Source: an uncultured Bacilli bacterium (lineage in GTDB: Bacteria > Bacillota_I > Bacilli_A > RFN20 > CAG-288). From it: a DNA stretch of 51,492 nucleotides. The translations under genes and the position numbers were made by a program. The notes under the pieces are model-generated. The model was not told the DNA's origin. It saw only the letters and a program-made list of their open reading frames with translations, and did no database searches. The stretch is taken from positions 1-51,492 of the forward strand of contig CALVKB010000005.1 of assembly GCA_944332485.1 (NCBI GenBank), given 5' to 3'. Shown one piece after another: positions 1 through 18,047 of the stretch (within the stretch, counting starts at the first letter, position 1; the number at the start of each line of letters is the position of its first letter).

Positions 1-296
1 GAATTACTAAACTCTTCATTAAATGCACCAAAGATAGATACATTCGCTTTATAAATAGTTTGCCCAAACTTAGTTGTTGTTTTACTAAATGAAACTTCAC
101 AAGATGGTAGATCCATAATTGAACTTTCATCATAGTTATAAAGTGTCGGTATCAACCCATTAATCAATGGAGATACTTCAATAATTGGACAATGCCAATA
201 TTCATTATTAACAGTTTTAACAGTCTTAATAGATACAATTTCTTTGTCTTTTTTCTCAGTAATTTTAATTTCTTCTTTCATAACATTTGTTTCCAT
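1..296 (-). CDS. Hypothetical protein, C-terminus off the left edge
   Basis: The reading frame opens at an ATG (294-296, minus strand) preceded by a good ribosome site, AAGGAG, about nine bases upstream. It runs open for 98 codons to the window edge, so only the N-terminal part is seen. The first 20 residues are Lys/Glu rich (METNVMKEEIKITEKK). Next comes a mixed polar stretch with a WHCP motif near residue 36 and a beta-looking tail. There is no signal peptide or membrane segment. I do not recognise the family. It sits upstream of the integrase element with the 80-aa gene next to it on the same strand, so it probably belongs to the mobile island. Confidence 0.6.
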   Translation of the reverse strand, partial: METNVMKEEIKITEKKDKEIVSIKTVKTVNNEYWHCPIIEVSPLINGLIPTLYNYDESSIMDLPSCEVSFSKTTTKFGQTIYKANVSIFGAFNEEFSN

Positions 297-419
297 AATT
301 TAATACTCCTTAGTTTGTGTATAACGCCCACAATAGCGGTAAAATTAATTATTTAATGCAGTGTTTTTTAAAATAAGCTTGTTTTAAATCCGCAAAGATT
401 TTAAATAAATGAAGCAATA

Positions 420-662
420 CTACTTAATTTTCTTTTTATTAGTAACATGTACCACTGCCACAGGTTGATGTTTTTCATTCCAAAATTTACGAGCTGCAGA
501 AGCTTCATAACGAGCTGCGACATAGCCTTTTCGATAAGATTTCTCAGAATCAGTTAATGGGCCATATTGAGTATCGCGATAAAAACTAAGTTTATTCCCA
601 GCTTTAAGTTCTCTACAATACTTTGTAAATTTCTTACTTGGCGACAAACGTGACTTACTCAT
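420..662 (-). CDS. Small basic hypothetical protein of the mobile island
   Basis: This 80-aa protein starts at an ATG with a strong ribosome site (TAGGAGG, about five bases before the start). It is basic and begins and ends with Lys/Arg clusters (MSKSRLSPSKKF and NKKKIK). The middle part, GYVAARYEASAARKFWNEKH, looks like one amphipathic helix. There is no membrane segment or known motif. The charge and size would suit a nucleic-acid-binding accessory protein of a small phage or plasmid, but this is only inference. It is transcribed away from the repressor gene at 921, with the operator region between them, and lies 123 bases upstream of the partial gene at the left edge, in the same direction. 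Confidence 0.6.
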   Translation of the reverse strand: MSKSRLSPSKKFTKYCRELKAGNKLSFYRDTQYGPLTDSEKSYRKGYVAARYEASAARKFWNEKHQPVAVVHVTNKKKIK

Positions 663-742
663 TTTTTACCTCCTATAAAACAAATATTTCAAATTTTTGT
701 TGAAGATGAAGTTTGACAAACACCACTTGTTTAAATAAAAGA

Positions 743-772
743 GGCTAGGTGTCTCTACTCACTCACCTAGCC
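743..772. other. Perfect 9-bp hairpin
   Basis: GGCTAGGTG (743-751) pairs perfectly with CACCTAGCC (764-772) around a 12-base pyrimidine-rich loop. It is far more GC-rich than its surroundings. It lies between the 80-aa gene (leftward) and the operator/repressor region. It could end a leftward transcript (TCTTTTATTT follows on the minus strand), or be a single-strand replication or packaging hairpin of a small ssDNA-type element. Confidence 0.55.
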
Positions 773-822
773 CCAAAAAGAAATAATACATAGCTACAAA
801 AGTTTAATAGAGTAGAGAAAAA

Positions 823-901
823 TTACAGAAATTCTGTAATGCTTATCAATAGTTTACATAAATATTGTAATAAAGACAAGAAAAAATACAATATTTCTGT
901 A
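823..901. promoter_or_regulatory. Three phased operator dyads for the repressor
   Basis: Three 15-base dyads of form TACA-N7-TGTA occur at 824-838 (a perfect palindrome when extended to 823-839, TTACAGAAATTCTGTAA), 855-869 and 887-901. Their starts are 31 and 32 bases apart, i.e. three turns of the helix each. They lie in the divergent region between the leftward 80-aa gene and the rightward Xre-type gene. The third site overlaps where the -35 region of the repressor promoter would be. The layout resembles the triple operators of lambdoid phages. Binding by the 921-1199 product is inference. Confidence 0.75.
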
Positions 902-920
902 TTTTTGTAAAAATTTAATT

Positions 921-1199
921 ATGGAATACTATGAAAAACTTAGAAAAATTAGAGAAGAACAAAATAAATCAAGATTACAAGTAGAATTAAATACATCAAT
1001 AAAACAAAACAAACTATCAGAAATGGAACACGGAAGACAAAGATTATACTTTACTGATGTTATTGAATTGTGTAATTATTACAATATTAAAATAACAGAT
1101 ATTTTAGATGATGAACAAAATAAAGAAAAATTAACAGAAGAAGAAAAACAATCTATTAAAACAACAATTAAAATACTTAAAAACTTAATTAAAAATTAA
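921..1199 (+). CDS. Xre-family (Cro/CI-like) transcriptional regulator
   Basis: This 92-aa protein begins with a helix-turn-helix domain of Cro/CI type (about residues 5-62): KLRKIREEQNKSRLQVE, then a recognition-helix region QNKLSEMEHGRQ, then LCNYYNIKITDILD, which is typical for the fourth and fifth helices. The last 25 residues are a Lys/Glu-rich helix, perhaps for dimerisation. There is no Shine-Dalgarno. A weak extended -10 (TGT then AAAAAT) ends six bases before the ATG, so the message may be leaderless, as lambda cI is from PRM. Three operator-like dyads lie directly upstream, which suggests autoregulation and control of the leftward genes. It probably keeps the integrated element silent. 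Confidence 0.8.
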   Translation: MEYYEKLRKIREEQNKSRLQVELNTSIKQNKLSEMEHGRQRLYFTDVIELCNYYNIKITDILDDEQNKEKLTEEEKQSIKTTIKILKNLIKN

Positions 1200-1200
1200 A

Positions 1201-1219
1201 TTGATACAAATTTGATACA
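1201..1219. repeat. Direct repeat pair TTGATACA, left of core (candidate integrase arm sites)
   Basis: TTGATACA occurs at 1201-1208 and again at 1212-1219, an 11-base period, directly after the repressor stop codon. The same pair with the same period is found at 1387-1405 on the other side of the tRNA-like core. Paired direct repeats flanking a core are what arm-type binding sites of a tyrosine integrase look like. The binding itself is inference. Confidence 0.6.
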
Positions 1220-1225
1220 ACTTTT

Positions 1226-1257
1226 TTAATTTTTTGTTTTCGTAAACAAAAAATTAA
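1226..1257. terminator. Long AT-rich hairpin, probably bidirectional terminator
   Basis: A perfect 14-bp inverted repeat (1226-1239 with 1244-1257) surrounds the loop TCGT. The stem is mostly T on the left arm and A on the right, with TTTTTTG pairing with CAAAAAA. It follows the repressor gene and faces the integrase gene, so it can end transcripts from both sides. Confidence 0.6.
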
Positions 1258-1318
1258 ACTTAAAAACAATCATTTTCATATAAAAATATATAAAAAAAGG
1301 AATAAAAGGAATCTTTTT

Positions 1319-1339
1319 AATCCCTTTTGCTCCGCCATT
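1319..1339 (+). repeat. tRNA-Ser-like 3' end, attachment core 1
   Basis: The 21 bases read as the end of a T-loop (AAT), a T-stem 3' arm (CCCTT), an acceptor 3' arm (TTGCTCC), discriminator G and CCA. The G discriminator fits tRNA-Ser. No 5' part of a tRNA precedes it, so it is a fragment and not a gene. A close copy lies at 4889-4908, with one base less. It is flanked on both sides by paired TTGATACA repeats. This is the usual signature of an integrase core site in a tRNA 3' end. The intact tRNA must lie outside the window. Confidence 0.7.
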
Positions 1340-1340
1340 C

Positions 1341-1370
1341 TCGCATATTTTGAATATATGCGATTTTTTT
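1341..1370 (+). terminator. Intrinsic terminator after core 1
   Basis: TCGCATAT (1341-1348) pairs with ATATGCGA (1356-1363), followed by seven T. It stands two bases after the tRNA-like CCA, as an end signal for the reconstituted tRNA would. The native copy behind core 2 has a different hairpin in the same place. Confidence 0.8.
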
Positions 1371-1386
1371 ATACCCTTTTTCAGTT

Positions 1387-1405
1387 TTGATACAGATTTG
1401 ATACA
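1387..1405. repeat. Direct repeat pair TTGATACA, right of core
   Basis: TTGATACA at 1387-1394 and 1398-1405, again with 11-base period and in the same orientation as the pair at 1201-1219. It lies just beyond the integrase stop codon, about 50 bases from the core, suiting an arm-type integrase site. Confidence 0.6.
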
Positions 1406-1408
1406 GAT

Positions 1409-2509
1409 TTAAGATAATTTTTCATCAATTTTTGTAATCAAATTTTTAATAACTTCTTGTTGCTCTATCGGTAACGCTAAATAGTATTTATTTGTTGTAT
1501 TAATAGAATCATGACCAAGAATTTTAGCTACAATATTGTCATTTACATTATTAATAATCAAATTTGTAGCAAAAGACTTTCTAAGAGTATGAAATCGAAA
1601 CACTTCAATATGTGCTAAATCGCAATACTTCTTAATCTTGTTTTGAACTGTTGTCTTAATAATATGCTTTCTTCTATTCTTAGAAAAAAACAAATAATGA
1701 TTATTCTTAAGCTTATACTGTTTAATAAATAGTTCAATCTCTGATGCAAGCTCAGTACTTAAATAAACAATACGATTCGAGTTAATTGTCTTTGGTGAAC
1801 TATTAACAAATGAATGTTTAATTGTAATATATTGCGACTGATGATCTATTGTAAGAGTTTTAGATACATTATTGTAATTACAAACCTTCAATGAAACAAT
1901 CTCAGAAAAACGCAAACCAGTTAAATAAGCTGTTTTAAACATTAAGCCATAAATATAATCAGAAGATGGAATCACCACTAAAAACTTCTTAAAATCCTCA
2001 GTTGATATATAAGCAACATTTCTTTTAACCGAATGATCTTTCAACATATCGAACTTAATATAAATATCATTAGATGAAGACAAATAATCTTTCGCATATA
2101 TAAATATTTGTTTTAAATCACTGATAAGTTTATTAATATAATGAACATTCAAATCTTCCTTCAAGTTCAATTCGAAAAAACTTTGAAAATCATTCAATGT
2201 AATTTCATTCACTCTCTTTAATCCAAAATAACTAATCAAATGAAAATGTATTCGCCTATACTTAACATCAAAAGAAGATAATTTACAACGTGTTTTGTAC
2301 TTTTTCAAAAATTGTTCTGATGCAAACTTAAAGGTAACGTTTCTTTTTACAAACTTATTGTTCTGATAATTGTCTATAAAATTAAGCTCATATTCTCTGG
2401 CATCTTTCTTTGAAGCAAAACCACGCTTCATATACTGTTTTCCTTTATATGAAACTTTCAGATAATACATAACTTGACCTTTAGAATTTTTGTACTTATA
2501 TATTGGCAT
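1409..2509 (-). CDS. int: Tyrosine recombinase / phage-type integrase
   Basis: The 366-aa protein has the three-part layout of phage integrases. The N-terminal arm-DNA-binding domain comes first (about residues 1-50: PIYKYKNSKGQVMYYLKV, then KGKQYMKRGFASKKDA). A core-binding SAM-like domain follows (about 60-165), then the catalytic domain (about 170-360). The catalytic residues are visible: Arg in TGLRFSEI (about 200), HTLRKSF (His-x-x-Arg, about 306), LGHDS (about 332) and the nucleophile Tyr in NKYYLAL (about 341). Length is normal for the family. It reads toward the tRNA-like core at 1319-1339, as is common for integrases beside their att site. The start has only a weak ribosome site and lies 13 bases after the stop of the truncated ATPase gene, with which it may be cotranscribed. 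Confidence 0.95.
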   Translation of the reverse strand: MPIYKYKNSKGQVMYYLKVSYKGKQYMKRGFASKKDAREYELNFIDNYQNNKFVKRNVTFKFASEQFLKKYKTRCKLSSFDVKYRRIHFHLISYFGLKRVNEITLNDFQSFFELNLKEDLNVHYINKLISDLKQIFIYAKDYLSSSNDIYIKFDMLKDHSVKRNVAYISTEDFKKFLVVIPSSDYIYGLMFKTAYLTGLRFSEIVSLKVCNYNNVSKTLTIDHQSQYITIKHSFVNSSPKTINSNRIVYLSTELASEIELFIKQYKLKNNHYLFFSKNRRKHIIKTTVQNKIKKYCDLAHIEVFRFHTLRKSFATNLIINNVNDNIVAKILGHDSINTTNKYYLALPIEQQEVIKNLITKIDEKLS

Positions 2510-2522
2510 ATCAAAAACTCAA

Positions 2523-2669
2523 TTAAAAATTATATTCATAGGATTTTTCACACTCCTTTTTAAAATAACCTTTCTTAATTTCATCAAAAACAATTAGTAC
2601 AAGAGCATAAATAAGAATAACACCTATTAAACTTGCGATAACTATTAAAGTAATGTAAATCCAATTCAT
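2523..2669 (-). pseudogene. Truncated N-terminus of the membrane P-loop ATPase (copy A)
   Basis: A 48-codon frame encodes one N-terminal membrane helix (WIYITLIVIASLIGVILIYA) followed by FDEIKKGYFKKECEKSYEYNF. The last part clearly matches residues 28-47 of the ATPase encoded at 3345-4153 (FDEIKKHYFQTKCEQSYAF). The similarity stops just before the P-loop region, and the integrase gene begins 13 bases on. So this is the 5' stub of a second ATPase gene interrupted by the integrase-att module. It keeps a start codon with a ribosome site (AGGAGAG upstream) and could still be translated. Confidence 0.75.
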
Positions 2670-2679
2670 AAACTCTCCT

Positions 2680-2874
2680 TTAGTGTCTATCTCTACGATA
2701 TTCAGCTTCTAAAGTGATGATTGATTTATGTTTTCTTTTTGCAGGACAACATAACCAAACTAGGACATAAATAGGTGTGTAAACTATGTAAAACAAGATA
2801 ATTAATATCCACCTGAAAGGAAGTAAGATTCGTGGACAAAACAAAGGTTTAAAAGACAATTTCTTAAATTCCAT
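2680..2874 (-). CDS. 64-aa membrane protein, module copy A
   Basis: A short cytoplasmic N-terminus (MEFKKLSF) is followed by one or two hydrophobic segments (about residues 18-43, rich in Ile/Leu/Val/Tyr/Trp) and a basic tail ending in AEYRRDRH. It starts behind a good ribosome site (GAAAGGAG). It is 42 of 64 residues identical to the product of 4167-4361, and the upstream leader is conserved too. The preserved ends (MEFKK and EYRRDRH) show purifying selection. Size and topology would suit a minor coat or assembly protein of a filamentous phage. No family is recognised with certainty. Confidence 0.7.
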   Translation of the reverse strand: MEFKKLSFKPLFCPRILLPFRWILIILFYIVYTPIYVLVWLCCPAKRKHKSIITLEAEYRRDRH

Positions 2875-2922
2875 AATTTTTTACTCCTTTCTACTTGACA
2901 ATAAACTAAAAACATATAATAA

Positions 2923-3000
2923 TCTTAGTAAGAGTTAGGACGACTAAGAGTAATGGACAATAACGATCCTGGATTTCGTAGGTTAGCTAGCTCTCTTTTT
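2923..3000. other. Structured intergenic element, module copy A
   Basis: TCTTAGT (2923-2929) can pair with ACTAAGA (2943-2949), and CCT...AGG and a GCTAGC palindrome follow before a six-T run. It sits between the PemK-like gene and the 64-aa gene, the same position as the branched structure at 4418-4485. Both end in six T on the plus strand while the genes run on the minus strand. It may be a replication or packaging signal, or a processing site. Confidence 0.4.
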
Positions 3001-3329
3001 TATTTAATTTTTCTTAAATAAACATTAGAAACAGATCTAATACGATTTTGATCAATTAGATGAAAAACATTAGATTTTTCATAATCAGAAAAAATTTGAT
3101 TATCATAAACTTCTCTAATTTTATTTTCTGATACATAATCGATTCTAGGTAAAACATACATATTTTCAGTAATTTTAAAATTATCTCTACCAAAAGTCTT
3201 ATTTGAATGAGTAATACCTACAATAGGATATACACTAATTTTATCTCCAACTACAAGAGCAGGATGTCTGCTAAATCTATTGAATCGAATATCGCCAGTT
3301 TTTATATTAGTGTCAAAATGTTTTCTCAT
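3000..3329 (-). CDS. PemK/MazF-like protein, module copy A
   Basis: The 109-aa protein has a region reminiscent of PemK/MazF-type folds: KTGDIRF, then RHPALVVGDK, then ITHSNKTFGRDNF (about residues 11-60). MazF-like toxins are mRNA interferases, but small phage and satellite elements also carry such proteins for other uses, and no antitoxin gene is visible. The start is preceded by AAAGGAGGTGAT, a full-strength Shine-Dalgarno, placed right after the stop of the extended ATPase frame. A diverged copy lies at 4581-4829. Function is a guess from the motif pattern. Confidence 0.5.
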   Translation of the reverse strand: MRKHFDTNIKTGDIRFNRFSRHPALVVGDKISVYPIVGITHSNKTFGRDNFKITENMYVLPRIDYVSENKIREVYDNQIFSDYEKSNVFHLIDQNRIRSVSNVYLRKIK

Positions 3330-3344
3330 AATATCACCTCCTTT

Positions 3345-4153
3345 CTATAATTTAAATGGATTCCATACTTTCAATTTAGTATTAGTTCTTTTTGCATGAA
3401 TAGCCTGGAAAGGCAATACTAAAATCAAATAAGGAATAAAAACAATTAATTTCAATACTATCAATGCAATTTTTAATCCGTACTTTAAAATCGTCAATAA
3501 AATAGGCAAAAAGCCTGGAATAAAAATTAAACATAAAACAATAGTTAAAATTACTAAACCAATAACAATAATTGATATTATTAACGATATTTTTGAATCA
3601 TCTGTTTCCTTATTTAAAAAGTCAATATAACCCTGAGAATCAATTAAAACATCAACCGTAATAAATCACGAACAACAGAACCAGCATATTTAAACTTTAA
3701 AGGACCACCAAAAACATCCTCGTAAGTTCGTTTATCTTTATCAGATATTGCTTGACTTAATATATAAGATGAAATGTAAGCTGAATTAGTTATATGTTTA
3801 ATTTCACCATCACCATATTTATACAAATATTCAATCGTTTCATTAATTCTATTAAAATCAACATCTGGATATTTAATTTTAATTTCTTCAATCTTATCTG
3901 ATGCCTGCTGCATTTTGAAGATTGTAAAATAATTAGTAATTCCAGATGCCATTGTAGTCTTACCAGTTCCTATTTCACCAGCAATACAAGTATAAAGACC
4001 TGGATATTTAACTATAAAGGCATAAGATTGTTCACACTTAGTTTGAAAATAATGTTTCTTTATTTCATCAAATACTAAGCGAAAAATACAATAAATAATA
4101 AAAGCCATAATATAAACGCCTAATATAATTAAAGGAATCCATCGATAATCCAT
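3345..4153 (-). pseudogene. Membrane P-loop ATPase, broken by a -1 frame change (copy B)
   Basis: The first frame (4153 down to 3644) gives 169 aa: an N-terminal membrane helix (about 5-27), then a Walker A loop AGEIGTGKTT (about 59-68) and a soluble helical part. It ends ...LLRLMF then TAA. In the -1 frame the protein would go on for about 100 codons to TAG at 3345-3347 with LIDSQGYIDF, a long double membrane segment and a Lys-rich tail ending KVWNPFKL. That second part has no start codon of its own. The change happens at TTTTAA. The whole is similar in plan to the assembly ATPases (Zot/gpI-like, or plectrovirus P-loop proteins) of filamentous phages. It may be a mutation or a programmed -1 shift. 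Confidence 0.6.
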
Positions 4154-4166
4154 AAACCTCTCCTTT

Positions 4167-4361
4167 CTAATGTCGATCTCTTCGATATTCAGCTTGTAAT
4201 GTAATCATTGACTTTTTCTTTCTATTTGAAGGTAACAATAACCAAATGAAAACAAACAAAGGAATATAAAAAATATAAAAAATAATCACTAAAACCCACC
4301 AAAACGGAAGAAAAATTTTAGGACAAAAAATCGGTAAAAAAGATATTTTTTTAAATTCCAT
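4167..4361 (-). CDS. 64-aa membrane protein, module copy B
   Basis: This is a homologue of the product of 2680-2874 (42 of 64 residues identical) with the same ends (MEFKK and AEYRRDRH). The hydrophobic centre (about residues 18-43, FWWVLVIIFYIFYIPLF) spans the membrane once or twice. The leader (GTAGAAAGGAGTAAAAAAAT) is nearly the same as in copy A. It is followed after 13 bases by the membrane ATPase gene, so the two are likely translated from one message. A phage assembly or coat role is inferred only from size, topology and context. Confidence 0.7.
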   Translation of the reverse strand: MEFKKISFLPIFCPKIFLPFWWVLVIIFYIFYIPLFVFIWLLLPSNRKKKSMITLQAEYRRDRH

Positions 4362-4417
4362 AATTTTTTTACTCCTTTCTACTTGACAGCAAATAAATAA
4401 TTATATTTAATAAATCT

Positions 4418-4485
4418 AGATGGTATGCGTATGTACCAGCATGAACTGGGAGTAGCTCGTAAAGCTTGCGATACCATCTTTTTTA
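4418..4485. other. Branched (three-stem) structured element, module copy B
   Basis: An outer 9-bp stem (AGATGGTAT at 4418-4426 with ATACCATCT at 4471-4479) closes over two inner hairpins: CCAG/CTGG (4436-4439 with 4446-4449) and AGCT/AGCT (4454-4457 with 4463-4466). Six T follow on the plus strand. It is placed as in copy A, between the PemK-like and the 64-aa genes. A small three-way junction is possible for an RNA or for single-stranded DNA. A simple rightward terminator would be pointless here, because no rightward gene precedes it. Confidence 0.45.
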
Positions 4486-4829
4486 TTTAATTAAATTTCT
4501 CAAAGCTTTATATTTAATTTCAATATCATGAATTCTATCGTTAATTCTAATTAAATTTTTAATTAAAATTTTATCTTTCTTTAAAAACGATAACTAACAT
4601 AATTACTATTAAGTTTAAGATTATTTAAAGATCTATTAATTTTTTTAGTACTAATAAATGAAGGAGATTCATCTAAACTATTTATATTCGCTTTTAATTT
4701 TATAAATGTTGGAATATGCGTTAACAAAAAACCACTATATGTTTTATTCTTATTATCTATTTGATAAACATAAACTGGATGTCTTGACGATGAAGATTTA
4801 TAAAATTTATTTTCTTTAAAACGATACAT
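4483..4829 (-). pseudogene. PemK/MazF-like protein, module copy B, -1 frame change near the 3' end
   Basis: The first frame (4829 to 4581) gives 82 aa with SSRHPVYVYQIDNK and a LLTHIP segment, matching the RHPALVV and ITHS parts of copy A. It ends ...YVSYRF then TAA at a run of five T. In the -1 frame it would continue about 33 codons (FLKKDKILIKNLIRINDRIH...) to TAA at 4483-4485. This restores a length like that of copy A and a similar C-terminal pattern. That part has no start codon of its own. The ribosome site is poor (AAAGG upstream). Decay or programmed frameshifting are both possible. Confidence 0.5.
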
Positions 4830-4859
4830 AATAAACCTTTTTAAATTAAGCTAATTTTT

Positions 4860-4889
4860 TTAAAACGGATTCCAAATTTTCGATTTATA
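4860..4889 (-). pseudogene. C-terminal scrap of a third ATPase copy
   Basis: On the minus strand these bases read YKSKIWNPF and a stop, matching the C-terminus KLKVWNPFKL of the membrane ATPase encoded at 3345-4153. As in copy A, the PemK-like gene follows directly. The match runs into core 2, so the rest of the gene was lost or lies at another junction. Confidence 0.55.
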
Positions 4890-4908
4890 ATCCTTTTTCT
4901 CCGCCATT
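4889..4908 (+). repeat. tRNA-Ser-like 3' end, attachment core 2 (island boundary)
   Basis: This repeats core 1 (1319-1339) with one base missing in the T-stem/acceptor part: AATCC, a T run, then CTCCGCCATT. Its own terminator follows at 4921-4947 and ordinary chromosomal genes begin at 5023, so it marks the right boundary of the island. No TTGATACA arm repeats are near it. Confidence 0.65.
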
Positions 4909-4920
4909 TACGGAATATCA

Positions 4921-4947
4921 AAATACGTTGACAACAACGTATTTTTT
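4921..4947 (+). terminator. Intrinsic terminator behind core 2
   Basis: AAATACGTTG (4921-4930) pairs perfectly with CAACGTATTT (4935-4944) around ACAA, with the T run to 4947. It is probably the native terminator of the tRNA that served as integration target. Confidence 0.85.
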
Positions 4948-5006
4948 AGTTTAGATTTTCATAGAATATTTAATTTTGAGTACAAATAATAATGAACGTT
5001 ACTCTT

Positions 5007-5015
5007 TGTTATAAT
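5007..5015 (+). promoter_or_regulatory. Extended -10 promoter, leaderless start of the metalloprotease gene
   Basis: TG-T-TATAAT ends at 5015, seven bases before the ATG at 5023, with no Shine-Dalgarno in between. Transcription should begin at or next to the start codon. There is no clear -35 box at the right distance. Confidence 0.65.
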
Positions 5016-5022
5016 AATTTAC

Positions 5023-5736
5023 ATGTTTTTAAAAGAAAATAGAGTTTACTTTGAAGATATCATCAAAGATGAAAAATTCATAATCGAGAATAGCAATATT
5101 GAAGTTAATATTGAATATTCAAATAGAAGAAGTTTTGGAATGATGTGTTTGTATGGAAAATTACTGATAACTATTCCATTATCTGTTTTAAAAATAGGTT
5201 ATATAGGTAGAAGCTTTTATTTGCAACTTTGTAATTCTTTAGAAAAGATTTATATGAAAATTCAACCATTGAATATTGAACCAATAACTTTGAATTATGT
5301 TTATTTGTTCGGTGAGAAATTACAAGTTACAAATTTCAAAGGATATATTAATGAGCCGAAGTATTTTTATGTTAAAAGAATATCACTTACAAGCATTTTA
5401 AAACAATATGACAAAGTTGTTAAAGACAAATTACAGTCTATAATGAATGAAAATTGCAACTTATTAAAGTTAGCAAATGATTTTAAATTAACTATATCTT
5501 TCTATAAAACTCGTTATGGTTCAATCAATACAAAGGAAAGAAGAATCCATCTTGATAGACGTATCTTCGCTTTTAATTATGATGTATTTAATTCTGTCAT
5601 ACTTCATGAATTGTGTCACTGTTATTATCAAAATCACAGTAGGCAGTTTCATAATTTGTTAAATAGCGTATCTAGTAAAAATAAGTTTTATACTTATATT
5701 ATGGCGAAAGGTGATTTTCAGTTTTATGACAAATGA
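5023..5736 (+). CDS. YgjP/M48-type zinc metallopeptidase (DUF45)
   Basis: The 237-aa protein belongs by pattern to the YgjP-like (SprT-type) metallopeptidase group. The zinc motif HELCH (about residues 195-199) and NHSRQFH 10 residues later are the family hallmarks, preceded by the usual RYGSIN...IHLDRRIF. The N-terminal half holds the beta-rich DUF45 part (IEVNIEYSNRRSFG...GKLLITIP). There is no signal peptide or membrane helix, so it is cytoplasmic. Physiological substrates of this family are not known to me. It starts without a ribosome site and is probably read from a leaderless message. Its 3' end overlaps the next gene by about 11-26 bases, so the two are coupled. Confidence 0.85.
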   Translation: MFLKENRVYFEDIIKDEKFIIENSNIEVNIEYSNRRSFGMMCLYGKLLITIPLSVLKIGYIGRSFYLQLCNSLEKIYMKIQPLNIEPITLNYVYLFGEKLQVTNFKGYINEPKYFYVKRISLTSILKQYDKVVKDKLQSIMNENCNLLKLANDFKLTISFYKTRYGSINTKERRIHLDRRIFAFNYDVFNSVILHELCHCYYQNHSRQFHNLLNSVSSKNKFYTYIMAKGDFQFYDK

Positions 5737-6451
5737 TAGTTTGAACATGATTTCAACAAGTTCCAATAAAACATTTAAATATTTGCTTGAAATCAGCAAA
5801 GGAAAAATTGCAAATATGATCCTTTGTGAAGGCGAGGATTTAGTAAGTGAAAGTTATCAATCTGATAATTTGTCAAAAATCATATTTTATGAAGAAAATG
5901 AAATAGTTGATAAATATAAAGATGTTGAAAAAATCAAATTGTCGAAACAATTGTACCGTGAATTATCAAACTATCAATCTTTACCGAAAGTCATGGGAAT
6001 ATCCAAATTAAATTTATCAAGCGACAATTTTGGAAACAAAGTTGTTTATTTGGATAATTTACAGGATGGTGGAAACGTCGGCACTATTATCCGTTCAGCT
6101 TTAGCATTTGACTTTGATAGTGTAATTTTATCTTCTGATTGTATCTCGATTTTTTCCAAAAAAGTTATTCAAGCTAGTAAAGGTGCTATTTTCAAAATGA
6201 AACTTGGTATTCAACCATTGGAAAATTTTATCGATAAATATGATATTTATTCGACAACTTTGGATGGTGAAGATGAGAAAAAATTTGAAAAATTAAAAAA
6301 ACCTTTCGTGTTAGTTTTGGGTAACGAAGGCCATGGTATTAGAAAATCGTATCAAGATATTTCAAAGAAAATTAAAATTGATATTAAAAATATCGATTCT
6401 TTGAATGTCGCTATTGCTGGTTCGATATTCATGTATAGATTCAAAGATTAA
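5726..6451 (+). CDS. TrmH/SpoU-family RNA 2'-O-methyltransferase
   Basis: The SPOUT methyltransferase motifs are visible: motif 1 NLQDGGNVGTIIRSA (about residues 110-124), motif 2 VLGNEGHGI (about 200-208) and motif 3 with SLNVAIAGSIFMY at the end. These make the knotted S-adenosylmethionine site that methylates ribose 2'-OH in rRNA or tRNA. The exact target cannot be told. The N-terminal 100 residues are the usual substrate-binding part, though weakly conserved. I prefer the ATG at 5726 over the GTG at 5711, because AAAGGTG lies better before it. Both overlap the previous gene. The gene ends convergently with the TetR gene, overlapping it by four bases. Confidence 0.88.
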   Translation: MTNDSLNMISTSSNKTFKYLLEISKGKIANMILCEGEDLVSESYQSDNLSKIIFYEENEIVDKYKDVEKIKLSKQLYRELSNYQSLPKVMGISKLNLSSDNFGNKVVYLDNLQDGGNVGTIIRSALAFDFDSVILSSDCISIFSKKVIQASKGAIFKMKLGIQPLENFIDKYDIYSTTLDGEDEKKFEKLKKPFVLVLGNEGHGIRKSYQDISKKIKIDIKNIDSLNVAIAGSIFMYRFKD

Positions 6452-7129: not shown

Positions 7130-7834
7130 ATGGGAATTTTAATTGAAGCAAAAAATCTTACTAAAATTTATAAATCCAACCAATTGGAAACTCTAGCTTT
7201 ATCAAATGTGAGTTTTTCAATTAATGAAGGATCATTCACAGTTATATTAGGACCATCTGGTGCTGGTAAAACAACATTGTTGAACTTGCTTGGTGGTATG
7301 GATGATATAACATATGGTTCTTTGACAGTTGATTCGTTGGAACTTTTTGGCATGAAACAAAAACAATTGACTAATTATAGAAGAAATTCAGTTGGCTTTG
7401 TTTTCCAATTCTATAATTTGATGAATAATTTAACCGCTTTGGAAAATGTTGAATTAGCAGTTGAGGTTTGTAAGGATGCATTTTCACCTAAGGAGACCTT
7501 GGAGAAAGTTGGCTTGAAAGATAGAATGAAAAATTTTCCAAGTCAGTTATCTGGTGGTGAACAACAAAGAGTCAGTATTGCAAGAGCTATTGCAAAAAAT
7601 CCTAAACTTCTCCTTTGTGATGAACCAACTGGAGCTTTGGATTATCAAACTGGAAAAAGCATTTTGAAATTGTTGTATGATATGTCGAGAAATGAGAGAA
7701 AAACAGTTGTTTTAGTAACTCACAATGCCGCTTTGAAAGATATTGCTGACCAGGTTATTTATATTAAAAATGGAAAAGCAGAGAAAATTGAATATCAGAG
7801 TAATCCGAAAAAAGTAGAGGAGATTGAGTGGTAG
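7130..7834 (+). CDS. ABC transporter ATP-binding protein, MacB/LolD type
   Basis: The 234-aa ATPase shows all nucleotide-binding motifs in order: Walker A GPSGAGKTT (about 39-47), Q-loop in GFVFQFYNL (about 88-96), signature LSGGEQQRV (about 140-148), Walker B LLLCDEPTGALD (about 160-171) and the H-loop VLVTHN. The motif EPTGALD and the short length are typical of the MacB/LolD/FtsE class, which works with FtsX-like permeases and often exports peptides or lipophilic drugs. The partner is the next gene, whose start lies two bases after this stop. Regulation is probably by the divergent TetR protein. Confidence 0.95.
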   Translation: MGILIEAKNLTKIYKSNQLETLALSNVSFSINEGSFTVILGPSGAGKTTLLNLLGGMDDITYGSLTVDSLELFGMKQKQLTNYRRNSVGFVFQFYNLMNNLTALENVELAVEVCKDAFSPKETLEKVGLKDRMKNFPSQLSGGEQQRVSIARAIAKNPKLLLCDEPTGALDYQTGKSILKLLYDMSRNERKTVVLVTHNAALKDIADQVIYIKNGKAEKIEYQSNPKKVEEIEW

Positions 7835-7835
7835 T

Positions 7836-9680
7836 ATGAAAGCATTTATATTAAGTTGTTTTCGTACCATAAAAGACAACGTTTCAAGGTTCTTTGCGAT
7901 ACTTTTCATAATGTTACTCGGCTCAATGTTCGTCACAGGAGTAGCAGGGATTTCACCACACGTTGAAGCCAGTTACAATGATTTTTATCAGCAAAGACAG
8001 TTATCCGATATACAGATAATGTCAAAAAGTGCAACTGGATTTTCAACTGAACAGTTGGAATACTTAAACAACGATGAGAAAGTAAATTATTATGAAACTT
8101 TATATCAAGTTGATATGGAAGTTGAAACAGAAGAAGAAACACTGAATATTAGATATGCGGCCTATAATTTGCAAAATAGTAAAATCAACACTTTGCAGTT
8201 GATAGAAGGTAGTTTTCCAACACAATTCACTGAGGTTGTTGTTGAACAAGGATCAAATACCATACGTAGCATGAATATAGGTGATATTGTTCCATTTTCA
8301 ATGGGTCCAACAACAATAGATTTAAAAGTTGTCGGTATTGTTACCAATCCTTTATATATGTCCAAAGAGGGTGATTTTAATATGAACACCGATGATGTTT
8401 CATTGGATATAATCTGCTATTTGGATGAAACATACATACCATCATATTTACCATTACCGAAAACTTGTTTATATATGGATTTAAATATGTCTGAAAAATT
8501 CAATTATTTTGATAATAAATACGAAGATGAAGTTAAACAGTATCAAACATCATTGGAAGAGACAGATTTATTTTCCGAAGAGAATGCGGCAGTATTAACT
8601 TTGTTTGAAAATAGAAGCTTCGCTGTTTTACAAAATGTTTGTGACAAAATTAACATCATCGCTTTGATTTTCCCTATATTTTTCGCTTTGGTTGTCAGTT
8701 TAGTTTGTTTGACAACAATGAGTCGTTTGATAGATGATGAAAGAGGTCAGATAGGTTGTTTTAAATCAATCGGTATATCAAATAGAAGAATCATCAACAA
8801 ATATCTATTTTTCTCAATTGTTTGTAGTTCAATAGGTGCAGTTATCGGTTGTTTTATCGGTTATTATTTACTGCCATACGCTGTTTATCCGGCGTTTGAA
8901 AATGTCTTTTTCTTACCGACAGAATTATTTATCTTAGAATTCAATTTAGGATTTGCTTCAACAATCATCATGGTTATATGTATCATTCTTGTGACATTCT
9001 ATGTTGCTTACAAGGAAGTTAAAAATAAGCCGGTTGATTTATTAAGACCGAAAGCTCCTAAGGCCGGAAAGAAGATATTCTTGGAAAGAATACCATTTAT
9101 TTGGAATCATCTTAAATTCAAATATAAATCCACAGCAAGAAATATCTTCCGATATATGGGCAGATTTTTGATGATCGTCATATCAGTAGCTGGATCTAGT
9201 GCTTTAGCTTTGGCAGGTTTTGGTTTGTTGAATGTTTCAAGTGAGAAAGTTCTAATAGGTGAAACCTACATTGATTTGTCGGATACAATGATACCTGTTT
9301 CTACGATCGTTATTATATTCTCACTTTGTTTGTGCATGCTTGTTATTTACAATTTAACCAACATGAACATCGGTGAAAGAAAGCGTGAGATTGCAACATT
9401 GGAAGTTCTAGGATATCATTATAAGGAAGTTTATGGATATATTTTCAGAGAGATTTTTGTGATGAGTGTGATTGGAGTTTTGCTTGGATTGCCTTTTGGA
9501 ATTGCTCTTTTGTATCTGATTTTGACACAACTTGGGTTTGGTGATATCGGTAATGTTAAATATTATTCGTATCTTTTGACAATTGGTTTAACATTGTTAT
9601 TCAGCGTGTTTGTATATGTATTATTAATACCAAAGATTAAGAAAGTTGATATGAATGAATCGCTGAAAAGTATTGAATAG
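7836..9680 (+). CDS. ABC transporter permease, FtsX-like
   Basis: This is about 614 aa from the ATG at 7836. A TTG at 7824 is too close to GAGGAG to be used. An N-terminal membrane helix (about 13-36) is followed by a large extracellular part (about 37-255) of the MacB_PCD type. An FtsX block of three to four helices follows (about 262-390), then a linker with the conserved KPVDLLRPKAPK pattern. A further helix and a second FtsX block end near 600 (NIGERKREIATLEVLGY is the typical coupling motif). It forms the membrane part of the exporter with the preceding ATPase. The substrate is not determinable. No terminator is seen behind it before the riboswitch. Confidence 0.93.
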   Translation: MKAFILSCFRTIKDNVSRFFAILFIMLLGSMFVTGVAGISPHVEASYNDFYQQRQLSDIQIMSKSATGFSTEQLEYLNNDEKVNYYETLYQVDMEVETEEETLNIRYAAYNLQNSKINTLQLIEGSFPTQFTEVVVEQGSNTIRSMNIGDIVPFSMGPTTIDLKVVGIVTNPLYMSKEGDFNMNTDDVSLDIICYLDETYIPSYLPLPKTCLYMDLNMSEKFNYFDNKYEDEVKQYQTSLEETDLFSEENAAVLTLFENRSFAVLQNVCDKINIIALIFPIFFALVVSLVCLTTMSRLIDDERGQIGCFKSIGISNRRIINKYLFFSIVCSSIGAVIGCFIGYYLLPYAVYPAFENVFFLPTELFILEFNLGFASTIIMVICIILVTFYVAYKEVKNKPVDLLRPKAPKAGKKIFLERIPFIWNHLKFKYKSTARNIFRYMGRFLMIVISVAGSSALALAGFGLLNVSSEKVLIGETYIDLSDTMIPVSTIVIIFSLCLCMLVIYNLTNMNIGERKREIATLEVLGYHYKEVYGYIFREIFVMSVIGVLLGLPFGIALLYLILTQLGFGDIGNVKYYSYLLTIGLTLLFSVFVYVLLIPKIKKVDMNESLKSIE

Positions 9681-11213: not shown

Positions 11214-13925
11214 ATGGAATTAAAAGAGACTTTGTTAATGCCAAAAGGCAAATTTGAAATGCGAGGTAATCTTACTATTAAAGAACCCATACTTGTCGAA
11301 TATTTTCAAAAGATCCGCCTTTACGAATTGATGTTGAAGAAAAACGAAGGTCATAAATCATTTTATTTACATGATGGCCCTGCTTACGCCAACGGTGATA
11401 TTCACGCTGGTCACGCTTTGAATAAAATTTTGAAGGATATAATTGTTCGTTTTCATACCCTTAATGGTGAATACACCCCTTACCAACCAGGTTGGGATAC
11501 TCACGGTTTGCCAATCGAAGTTATGGTTGTTAAAAGTGGTGTTGATAGAAAGAAAGTGAGCGTGGCTGAATTTAGAAAGAAATGCTACGAATATGCCTTG
11601 ACACAAGTTGAACATCAGAAAAAACAAACACTTCGATTAGGATGTGTTGGTAATTTTGATAATCCTTATTTAACTTTGAGTAAGGAATATGAAACCGCAC
11701 AAATCAAGATATTTTTGAAGTTACTTGAGGACAAATTGATTTACAAAGGTTTGAAACCTGTCAACTGGTCTCCAAGTTCTGAATCAGCCTTAGCTGAAGC
11801 TGAAATTGAATATAAGGATGTCGTAGCCAAGACAATATATGTAAAATTCCCAATTATAAAAGGTAAAGATCAAGCAAAAAGAGGCTACAATTTTGTGATT
11901 TGGACAACAACACCTTGGACTTTACCAGCTAACTTAGCAGTTTGTTTGAATGCCGATATCGAATATGGTTTATATGAAACTGATCAAGGTAAGTTGATCT
12001 TCGCCAGCAATTTGTTGGATGAACTTACTGAAAAATTGAATTTGACAAATGTCAAATTGAAAGGCTTGTTAAAAGGTAAAGAGATGGAGAATATCGTTTG
12101 TTCTCACCCATTCTTGGAAGATAGAACAAGCTTGGTAATATTAGGTGATCACGTCACTGCCGAAGGAACTGGTTGTGTTCACACAGCTCCAGGACATGGT
12201 ATGGAGGACTATTTAGTCGGACAAAAGTACCACTTAAAACCATTTTGTCCAGTCGATTCTAAAGGTTACATGACAAATGAAGCTGGAGCAAGACTTGCTG
12301 GTATGTTTTATGAGGAAGCTAATGATGAAGTTATTAATTTGCTCAAAGAGACTGGCTGTTTATTGAAGCAAATTGATATAACTCACGCTTATCCACATGA
12401 TTGGAGAACACATAAACCACTTATTTTCCGTGCAACTCCACAGTGGTTTTTCGATCAGAAGAGTTTACAAAAACGTTTAGTTGAAGAAGCTTCAAAAGTG
12501 AGTTTTCTTCCTGAATGGGGAAAAGTCCGTCTTATCAACATGCTCAAAGGTCGTGATGAATGGTGTTTGTCCCGTCAAAGAGCCTGGGGTGTTCCAATTC
12601 CTGTTATCTATAAAGATGGGGAACCTTTGGTAAATAAAAAGGTATGCGATCATATCGTGCAGTTATTTGAAAAATATGGTTCCTCTATTTGGTATGAGAA
12701 AGAGGCTAAAGACTTACTCCCAGATGAATATAAAGACGTGAAAGGCAAGTTCACCAAAGAAACAGATATTATGGATGTTTGGTTTGATTCTGGTGTCTCA
12801 TTTTACGCTGCAGGTATTCAAAGAAATATGCCATTCCCGGCTGATATATATTTGGAAGGAAACGATCAATATCGTGGTTGGTACAACTCCTCGATGATTT
12901 TATCAACTGCTTATCTTAATTCAACTCCGTACAAGAAGATAATCACCCATGGTTTTATCTGTGATCAAAATGGTGAAAAATTCTCAAAGAGCAAGAAAAA
13001 CGGTATTGATCCAAATGATATCGTCAAAGAGTATGGAGCCGATATCCTCCGTTTGTGGACAACAACAATCGATTACAACACAGCCGAAATTAAGTTCAGC
13101 CGTGAACTTATGAAGGTTTGTTCAGAATCTTACAGAAAGATAAGAAATGTCTTCAAATTCATGCTGGCAAATCTTTATGATAATGATGAAAAGGTGTTTG
13201 AACATACTAAATTTGATGTTGCAAACTTATCATACGTAGATAGATTATTCTTAAATAAATTTGCAAGTTTGATGAACGTTGTTAAAGAGAAATATGAACA
13301 ATGTGATTTCTTGCAGGTAAACTCACTTATAATGAACTTCATTGTCAATGATTTATCAAGTTTTTATCTTGATTACAACAAGGATAATTTGTATTGCAAC
13401 AAAGTTGATAGTTTACCAAGAAGAAGCTGTCAATATGTTCTTTTTAAGATTTGTTACAGTTTAGCTGTTGCTTTATCTCCAATTTTGCCATTCACAATGG
13501 AGGAAGTTTATAACAATTTAGGCTTGAAAGATAAAAAGCTTTCAGTAGCATTGGAAGATTTTCCACGTTTTGGAAAAGCAGATGAAAAATTGTTGAATGA
13601 ATATGATACTTTGATGTCAATCAGAGATAAAGTTAATATTTCACTTGAGGAAGTTAGAAAGAATCTTGAAATTAAAGGTTCAAATGAAGCCGGTGTTGTG
13701 TTCAATGCTAATTCAGATGAAAAAGTTTTGATTGAAAAAATAGGCTTGAATAAAATCAATGCTATATTCAATGTTTCTAAATTTGAGTTAGGAAGTGAGA
13801 CTAAAGCATATAAGCTTTCAAATTATCATAGATGCGACCGTTGTTGGAATTATTTTGAAAGAGTTGAACAAATCGATTCTTCAAATTTATGTGAACGCTG
13901 TAAGAAGGTGGTGTTAGATGAGTAA
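11214..13925 (+). CDS. ileS: Isoleucyl-tRNA synthetase
   Basis: The class I synthetase charges tRNA-Ile with isoleucine. The 903-aa length is normal for the bacterial type. The HIGH-like motif is GDIHAGHALNK (about residues 60-70), and KMSKS is present as EKFSKSKKNG (about 588-597). The editing domain lies in between (TTPWTLPANLAV, about 232-243). The anticodon-binding helices and a C-terminal zinc knuckle CDRCWNYF...CERCKK (about 873-899) complete it. It begins behind TTGGAGG. No T-box is visible in the 100-base leader. The last bases overlap lspA by eight, so an ileS-lspA-rluD operon is likely. Confidence 0.98.
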   Translation: MELKETLLMPKGKFEMRGNLTIKEPILVEYFQKIRLYELMLKKNEGHKSFYLHDGPAYANGDIHAGHALNKILKDIIVRFHTLNGEYTPYQPGWDTHGLPIEVMVVKSGVDRKKVSVAEFRKKCYEYALTQVEHQKKQTLRLGCVGNFDNPYLTLSKEYETAQIKIFLKLLEDKLIYKGLKPVNWSPSSESALAEAEIEYKDVVAKTIYVKFPIIKGKDQAKRGYNFVIWTTTPWTLPANLAVCLNADIEYGLYETDQGKLIFASNLLDELTEKLNLTNVKLKGLLKGKEMENIVCSHPFLEDRTSLVILGDHVTAEGTGCVHTAPGHGMEDYLVGQKYHLKPFCPVDSKGYMTNEAGARLAGMFYEEANDEVINLLKETGCLLKQIDITHAYPHDWRTHKPLIFRATPQWFFDQKSLQKRLVEEASKVSFLPEWGKVRLINMLKGRDEWCLSRQRAWGVPIPVIYKDGEPLVNKKVCDHIVQLFEKYGSSIWYEKEAKDLLPDEYKDVKGKFTKETDIMDVWFDSGVSFYAAGIQRNMPFPADIYLEGNDQYRGWYNSSMILSTAYLNSTPYKKIITHGFICDQNGEKFSKSKKNGIDPNDIVKEYGADILRLWTTTIDYNTAEIKFSRELMKVCSESYRKIRNVFKFMLANLYDNDEKVFEHTKFDVANLSYVDRLFLNKFASLMNVVKEKYEQCDFLQVNSLIMNFIVNDLSSFYLDYNKDNLYCNKVDSLPRRSCQYVLFKICYSLAVALSPILPFTMEEVYNNLGLKDKKLSVALEDFPRFGKADEKLLNEYDTLMSIRDKVNISLEEVRKNLEIKGSNEAGVVFNANSDEKVLIEKIGLNKINAIFNVSKFELGSETKAYKLSNYHRCDRCWNYFERVEQIDSSNLCERCKKVVLDE

Positions 13926-16623: not shown

Positions 16624-16628
16624 AATTG

Positions 16629-18047
16629 TTATTTTTTATCCTTTTTGATTTTGTCGATTTCTATTGTTGTAGTGTTCTCAAGAGTATTGTTAGCTTGAAC
16701 ACATGTTATTGAACCATGATGTTCGATCTTTTTCCATGTTCTTCGTTTTCTTGGGAAGATTAAACCATCAAAAAATGCTAATGGAAAGTCCATGAAAAAG
16801 TAAAAATACGTCAAACAAACTACAGCTTTTCTTCTTGCACTCCAAGAGATGTTTTGTTTATCTATGGTGAAAATTATCAAAGGAATAACAAGCCATGGCA
16901 ACCATACAAGGAAAATTGCAAAAAGAAAATAGTAGAAAGTCATCAACATCGGTGAACAAGTTAAGTTCATGATGGTCATTTCAACTGAAGGATAATTACC
17001 AAATTGAATGAAACTTGATAACATCAATAATAAAGATGCGATAGCATGAGCTAATGTTGTTACGTTGAAAAATAAGAATGGGAATAAAGTTAAACTTATT
17101 TCAAATTTACCAAGAGTAAAACGCTTCATATGATCTTTGTTGTAAATCAAATTGTTAGTTTTCTTGTTACCAGCATTGATGTATCCCCATACCCATCTGA
17201 TATGTTGTTTGTGTAAGACTTTGAAAGTGGTTGGTTGTTCATCATAATATTTGGCAAATGGATAATAAAAACAGTTGAGATTGTGGAAATAAGCGTAGTT
17301 TGTCAATTGGCTATCCTCACTTAAATCGTTCCAAATCCATCCGCCAGCATCATCAATTATGTTTGAATTTATATAAAAACCAGCTCCCATCAATGTTACT
17401 TTATGGAAGAATTTTGAACGAGATTTACAAGTGACTTTAGACATATAAGCGAACAAAGTAGCAGAACAAGCGGAAACCCAACTTTCTTCTGCATTTGTGA
17501 ATAGTCTATCTCCGACACCTAGGTCGTATCCTAAATTTTTTATATCGTTAAGTTTTGTTATATAACTATTTTCAGCGATGTTGTCAGCATCAAAAACGAT
17601 ATATGCATCATATTTTTTGTTTATCGTTTTCAAATATTTAATGCACTCATCAAGAGCCCAGCCTTTTGTATGTTTATTTTCTAAATCTTTTCTTACGTAA
17701 TAATTAAAACCTTTTTCTCTAACTATCTGACATGTTGGATCTTCTTCACTTTCAACTATGACATAAACATCAAAGTAATTTTTATCATAATCTTGATTGA
17801 GCATTGAATTCAAAGAATTGTTTATAACATCTGATTCGTTTCTAGCCGGTATTAAAACAGCGTATTTATATTTTGTTTCTCCATGTGGTAAAACTTTGGT
17901 ACGCTTATATGAATTTTTAATGTATATAAATAATGGAAGACCAGTTATGATAAATAGACCGATTGAAGACATTATAAATATAAAAAGTACGAGCAAAGTT
18001 TGATAATAAGGAGTAACGCTTGTGCTAAATAAAAAGTGATGTAACAT
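16629..18047 (-). CDS. Membrane family-2 glycosyltransferase
   Basis: The 472-aa protein has an N-terminal helix (about 14-42) and a GT-2 catalytic domain. The latter shows KYAVLIPARNESDV (nucleotide-binding start), YIVFDADNI (DxD), SEDSQLTNYA (ED base region) and QHIRWVWGY (QxxRW, a mark of processive GT-2 enzymes). Three to four membrane helices (about 325-440) form the tail. Such enzymes make beta-linked polysaccharides or glycolipids with UDP-sugars on the inner face. The neighbouring PlsC homologue favours a lipid-linked product. It is the first gene of a two-gene leftward operon starting with TGGAGAAAAATT before the ATG. Confidence 0.88.
   Translation of the reverse strand: MLHHFLFSTSVTPYYQTLLVLFIFIMSSIGLFIITGLPLFIYIKNSYKRTKVLPHGETKYKYAVLIPARNESDVINNSLNSMLNQDYDKNYFDVYVIVESEEDPTCQIVREKGFNYYVRKDLENKHTKGWALDECIKYLKTINKKYDAYIVFDADNIAENSYITKLNDIKNLGYDLGVGDRLFTNAEESWVSACSATLFAYMSKVTCKSRSKFFHKVTLMGAGFYINSNIIDDAGGWIWNDLSEDSQLTNYAYFHNLNCFYYPFAKYYDEQPTTFKVLHKQHIRWVWGYINAGNKKTNNLIYNKDHMKRFTLGKFEISLTLFPFLFFNVTTLAHAIASLLLMLSSFIQFGNYPSVEMTIMNLTCSPMLMTFYYFLFAIFLVWLPWLVIPLIIFTIDKQNISWSARRKAVVCLTYFYFFMDFPLAFFDGLIFPRKRRTWKKIEHHGSITCVQANNTLENTTTIEIDKIKKDKK

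Follow-up and report, generated by a model that had tools for sequence, protein, structure and literature searches.

The stretch of DNA analysed here, called the window throughout, comprises 51,492 nucleotides and is the whole of contig C5 of an uncultured Bacilli genome (52 contigs, 1.13 Mb). The lineage was read from the relatives of its IleS, the best of which is 56% identical. Near its left end it carries a short fragment of a tRNA-Ser 3' end with direct repeats on both sides. The attP of lambda-type, arm-binding tyrosine integrases has this make-up, with sets of short direct repeats on either side of a core, and the question arises how such a site comes to lie inside a chromosome contig. 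The preliminary description had offered a junction of two tandem elements or, alternatively, an element that entered by another route. For the latter no support was found, and it is very probable that two related proviruses, A and B, lie integrated in tandem at the 3' end of tRNA-Ser(GGA) and that the site is the hybrid, internal attachment site where they meet. The features are as follows, where C and G denote contigs of the same genome and related genomes, respectively.

1-1318, strand not assigned: putative right end of element A, with the leftward small ORFs 3-296 and 420-662, then the rightward xre, then the arms.
921-1199, plus strand: xre-type regulator, 92 aa, last gene of element A (Pfam HTH_19, 8.7e-08; HTH_3; HTH_26).
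1201-1219, plus strand: arm pair of the attR side (P arm), TTGATACAAATTTGATACA; the same octamer pair lies 116-127 bp inside attR of G032, and an analogous TGGTGCA pair is found in G015.
1319-1339, plus strand: inner core, 21 bp, AATCCCTTTTGCTCCGCCATT, identical to the 3' end of tRNA-Ser(GGA) on C18; putative A/B crossover region.
1341-1372, plus strand: element-borne terminator directly 3' of the core (fold z -5.9).
1387-1405, plus strand: arm pair of the attL/integrase side (P' arm), TTGATACAGATTTGATACA; on C18 and C14, too, intact tRNA-Ser genes are directly followed by the pair.
1409-2509, minus strand: tyrosine integrase of element B, 366 aa (Pfam Phage_integrase, 1.5e-25; Arm-DNA-bind_4; Phage_int_SAM_3; phrog_1 integrase, 7.8e-59).
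1541-2332, minus strand: 792-bp stretch identical to the C18 integrase copy, while the sequence to either side of it diverges; either gene conversion or a collapsed repeat.
2526-2669, minus strand: remnant of a Zot/pI-like ATPase gene, reduced to its first 48 aa and fused by deletion (E 8.6e-20 over profile positions 1-48).
2538-3443, minus strand: element B1 module, 96% identical to C45:1584-2488.
3644-4153, minus strand: truncated Zot/pI-like ATPase of the older element B2 (E 1.2e-95 over profile positions 1-162; the C46 protein is 59% identical).
3696-4400, minus strand: element B2 module, 71% identical to the overlapping C45 region.
4845-4890, minus strand: putative terminal codons of a pIII-like gene (..KSKIWNPF stop) that was cut at the outer core; B1 and C47 have ..KLKVWNPFKL.
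4889-4908, plus strand: outer core (attR remnant), sharing CTCCGCCATT with the inner core.
4920-4945, plus strand: terminator behind the outer core (z -4.1).
5023-6451, plus strand: chromosomal genes resume with a YgjP-like metallopeptidase and a SpoU methylase (Pfam).

Two exact pairs of the octamer TTGATACA, each with an 11-base period, stand on either side of the inner core, precisely as the preliminary description had placed them. The left pair lies about 100 bp left of the core (its start 118 bp before it) and is separated from the xre stop codon by one base; the right pair lies 47 bp right of the core (start 48 bp after it), 4 bp from the integrase stop codon. The integrase contains both the catalytic and the arm-binding domain (Pfam). 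With a core between repeat sets and the integrase gene directly beside them, the site matches the attP of arm-binding (Arm-DNA-bind_4) integrases, the difference being its location in a chromosome contig instead of a circular phage genome. We suppose that Int binds these arms and can recombine the site. The terminator directly 3' of the core has counterparts on C18 and C14, and a hairpin resembling it stands behind the tRNA in several relatives; it is an element-supplied replacement for the terminator that was separated from the target tRNA gene. An Rfam scan of positions 1-5200 gave no match. A near-perfect palindrome at 1225-1258, just past xre and the left arm pair, is possibly the xre terminator.

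Relatives of the element were sought with an ATPase profile, which found it in 19 of 279 genomes of the order, and five relatives (G012, G015, G024, G031, and G032) are complete with both ends. They follow a common plan: tRNA, core, integrase, ATPase, structural-type genes, small genes, core. Variations concern the integrase, which is further from the end in G015, the rolling-circle initiator Rep_trans, present in G012 and G031, and an xre gene, located at or near the right (attR) end in four of the five. In one further genome (locus L131, G272:C4), two divergent ATPase copies (7581-8876 and 16628-17935) lie in opposite orientation about 9 kb apart, and no tRNA was found near them.

Two single-copy relatives reveal what the ends of a lone element look like. 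In G032 (14,337 bp, tRNA-Gly), which uses the octamer of the window, TTGATACA occurs three times inside attL and twice inside attR; the distance between core and repeat start is 127 bp for the attR pair, which precedes its core, and 72 bp for the attL set, which follows its core, compared with 118 and 48 bp in the window. In G015 (16,351 bp, tRNA-Pro), each end carries one TGGTGCA-type pair. Thus, each end holds one arm side, as had been expected of an integrated element in general, and joining such ends gives left pair, core, and right pair, i.e., the layout of the window. By the same scan, arm repeats were no more than weak in G031 and were undetected in G012 and G024. G024, in turn, contains a 10,542-bp element twice, as a perfect direct head-to-tail tandem; it lies in tRNA-Thr(TGT), and its three 41-bp cores are identical.

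Further sites of this kind exist in the same genome. The intact tRNA-Ser and additional core that the preliminary description had suggested to look for upstream are present on a separate contig: on C18, tRNA-Ser(GGA) is followed by the identical core, the same terminator, an arm pair, and a 99% identical integrase, and the contig ends soon after. The gene beside this integrase differs from the one beside the B integrase, and hence the tRNA-adjacent element on C18, as assembled, is not B. C14 shows the same order behind tRNA-Ser(GCT), with a 94% identical integrase cut by the contig end. On C23 (L034, near 13743-13824), a tRNA-Ser(TGA), its anticodon read by eye, carries core and arm pair; no integrase was seen at this site, which is probably a further decayed insertion. 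C26 has another tRNA-Ser-like gene with a core and a single octamer. The end of C10 bears a core of the tRNA-Ser(GCT) type together with arms; no integrase adjoins this core. Beyond this core, its last 33 bp match window positions 1285-1318 and not a tRNA (local score 36, reached by none of 5000 random windows), which makes it a second junction of the same kind, at the core of another tRNA gene. Because of this junction and of the tandem in G024, we consider a tandem more likely than the attP of a circle.

The tandem would have arisen as follows. Element B, itself a decayed fusion of the remnants of two insertions, would have been the first occupant of the site. A newer element A would then have used its own tyrosine integrase to insert at that att site of B which is proximal to the tRNA. 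The junction would consist of the right end of A (xre and P arms) and the left end of B (P' arms and integrase) around a regenerated core, and it has the make-up of a full attP because these two ends meet there. The resulting array would read tRNA-Ser(GGA), A, the site, B1/B2, outer core, chromosome. We infer both this order of events, B before A, and the link from C18 through A to C5 across an assembly gap. Exact overlaps between the fetched contig ends established no link among C18, C5, C10, and C14. No relative within the family keeps the same neighbours around an empty site (YgjP homologues are 21-31% identical, with tRNA-Ser absent nearby), and the C18-C5 adjacency is therefore unproven by synteny.

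The integrase gene is where a different explanation has to be weighed. Between the copies on C5 and C18 there are no differences at all over 1541-2332, while the flanks differ by about 4.5% and 9%. An assembler could swap flanks through this stretch, which is thus a weak point of the assembly. The chromosome might then read tRNA-Ser(GGA), integrase, B, outer core, and window positions 1-1540 would represent the attP carried by a circle of A, either excised or replicating, joined on through the 792 bp. This would suit contigs that end inside elements and data that resemble a metagenome bin, with a smallest contig of 2.7 kb. However, the equivalent junction on C10 has no adjoining integrase that could mediate such a swap, the tandem in G024 is real, and the identity can be equally well accounted for by gene conversion between tandem copies. 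We regard an assembly chimera as rather unlikely. Outside this genome, no close relatives of the integrase were found in the collections genome_contigs and viral_contigs; against phages and plasmids, the best among the matches listed are 25-29% identical.

With the tandem as the preferred reading, positions 1-1318 would be the right end of A, the upstream element, which extends into C5 from outside the contig. A is nowhere seen whole, as C5 begins inside it and C18 stops 250 bp beyond the integrase. Its right end, left of the core, occurs once in the genome, and neither of its ORFs 3-296 and 420-662 matches a Pfam or PHROG family. These two observations would also fit a different mobile element, or chromosomal DNA, with a similar repeat pair, in which case B would be a lone remnant with its own duplicated arms. 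Yet in its rightward xre, in the pair of the same period, and in the distance of that pair from the core, this region repeats the right ends of the relatives, and the C10 junction has the same flank, so that we hold this explanation to be very improbable. A search for Rep_trans in the organism's own, incomplete genome found none, and hence no replication gene is assigned to A.

Does the repeat itself distinguish att sites? The single octamer TTGATACA is not enriched in the window (8 found versus 4.7 expected, a count reached in 13 of 100 shuffles). The paired motif with at most one mismatch, in contrast, occurs six times in 1.13 Mb (twice on C5, and once each on C18, C14, C10, and C23), and a CTCCGCCATT core is found no further than about 125 bp from each of them. 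Pairs with exactly two mismatches likewise number six genome-wide, none of them att-associated, and a reversed control pattern gives 6 matches at up to two mismatches. Unlike the octamer alone, the pair is a clean marker of att sites in this genome. The preliminary description had stated that commonness of the octamer throughout the genome would speak against its proposal; the single octamer is indeed common, the pair is not. A chance or low-complexity likeness in an AT-rich genome, for which the lacking enrichment of the octamer could be adduced, has next to no probability left and is already refuted by the six pairs adjoining tRNA-Ser-type cores, besides which the motif recurs in a relative of another family (G032). 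A chance core match on C22 was rejected, as it falls inside serS.

To the right of the site, element B consists of the integrase and pieces of two older copies, decayed, and ends at the outer core. The B1 module contains a small membrane protein, a leader stem-loop, a 109-aa ORF (3000-3329), and the C-terminus of a pIII-like protein. Identity to C45 is so much lower for B2 than for B1 that we take B2 to be a separate, older insertion; judging from these alignments, B1 and B2 are remnants of two different insertions, joined by deletion. The outer core matches the inner core imperfectly and, in agreement with the preliminary description, has no arm pair within reach. The short match to the end of the pIII-like gene suggests that this gene was cut at the outer core and that the true right end of B2 was lost together with its arms, which would explain their absence here. 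The terminator that follows is probably the native one of tRNA-Ser.

What kind of element builds these arrays? The small contigs C45-C47 carry copies of stretches of the window (85-96% identical) and encode a P-loop ATPase (up to 598 aa) whose N-terminus holds a membrane segment, a 109-aa ORF, a 64-aa membrane protein next to the ATPase with a putative coat-type role, and two large proteins, each signal-like at the N-terminus and hydrophobic at the C-terminus. The ATPase, the small, and the large proteins have no convincing match in Pfam and PHROGs. A first ATPase model, built from three sequences, was set aside (pLDDT 34.7). The nearest named viral protein to the G012 ATPase model (pLDDT 70.7) is an Inoviridae Zot (E 1.1e-3, prob 1.00); for PDB 2r2a against a relative's ATPase model, prob is 0.98 but E 0.03. 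The family may be termed inovirus-like, for its putative Zot/pI-type ATPase and for the rolling-circle Rep of relatives, short of a proven inovirus.

Tandem inovirus prophages are on record. The large survey PMC6813254 (Roux et al. 2019) set apart 800 sequences carrying multiple pI genes, i.e., tandem inovirus prophages, for separate processing, and in about 30% of its predicted inovirus species pI contains an N-terminal membrane segment; for CTXphi, tandem copies are frequent (PMC8265649). Our elements share with these prophages the small integrated form, a putative FtsK/HerA-like pI/Zot ATPase, that membrane segment, and the direct tandem. They differ in that their ATPase and structural proteins match no PHROG or Pfam family, and in having their own tyrosine integrase, TTGATACA arms at tRNA genes, and an uncultured Bacilli host. 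Tandem accretion with an internal hybrid site is a known mechanism, described for ICEs, IMEs, and CIMEs with a chimerical internal attI (review PMC5704250) and for SGI1 arrays (PMC2297512). In contrast to these, the internal site here combines both arm sides of one integrase family, and the Pfam matches of the element proteins scanned include no relaxase or conjugation gene, hence no sign of conjugative elements.

The new part is the element family, which the phage and protein libraries searched do not recognise, together with its layered tRNA-Ser arrays. Our comparison brings out a family whose ATPase, structural, and small proteins are unmatched in those libraries, and traces from sequence how small proviruses build up layers at tRNA genes. 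One arm side at single ends, as opposed to both at junctions, provides a simple signature of arrays in fragmented assemblies. Tentatively, and with more doubt than confidence, we propose that this inovirus-like family forms self-accreting arrays at serine tRNA genes in uncultured Bacilli: new copies would enter on the tRNA-proximal side while older ones decay, and the internal attP might release genomes without loss of the provirus, similar to tandem CTXphi.

In the element copies, a stem-loop of about 60-80 nt precedes the small membrane-protein gene (window 2893-3000 and 4395-4490, minus strand), with equivalents on C10, C45, C46, and C47 and a similar hairpin in G024. It could be a packaging signal, a leader, or an opposite-strand terminator. 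Its stems vary between copies while the flanks are conserved; the copy at 4399-4500 folds far better than shuffled sequences (z -4.4), that at 2905-3010 does not (z 0.0).
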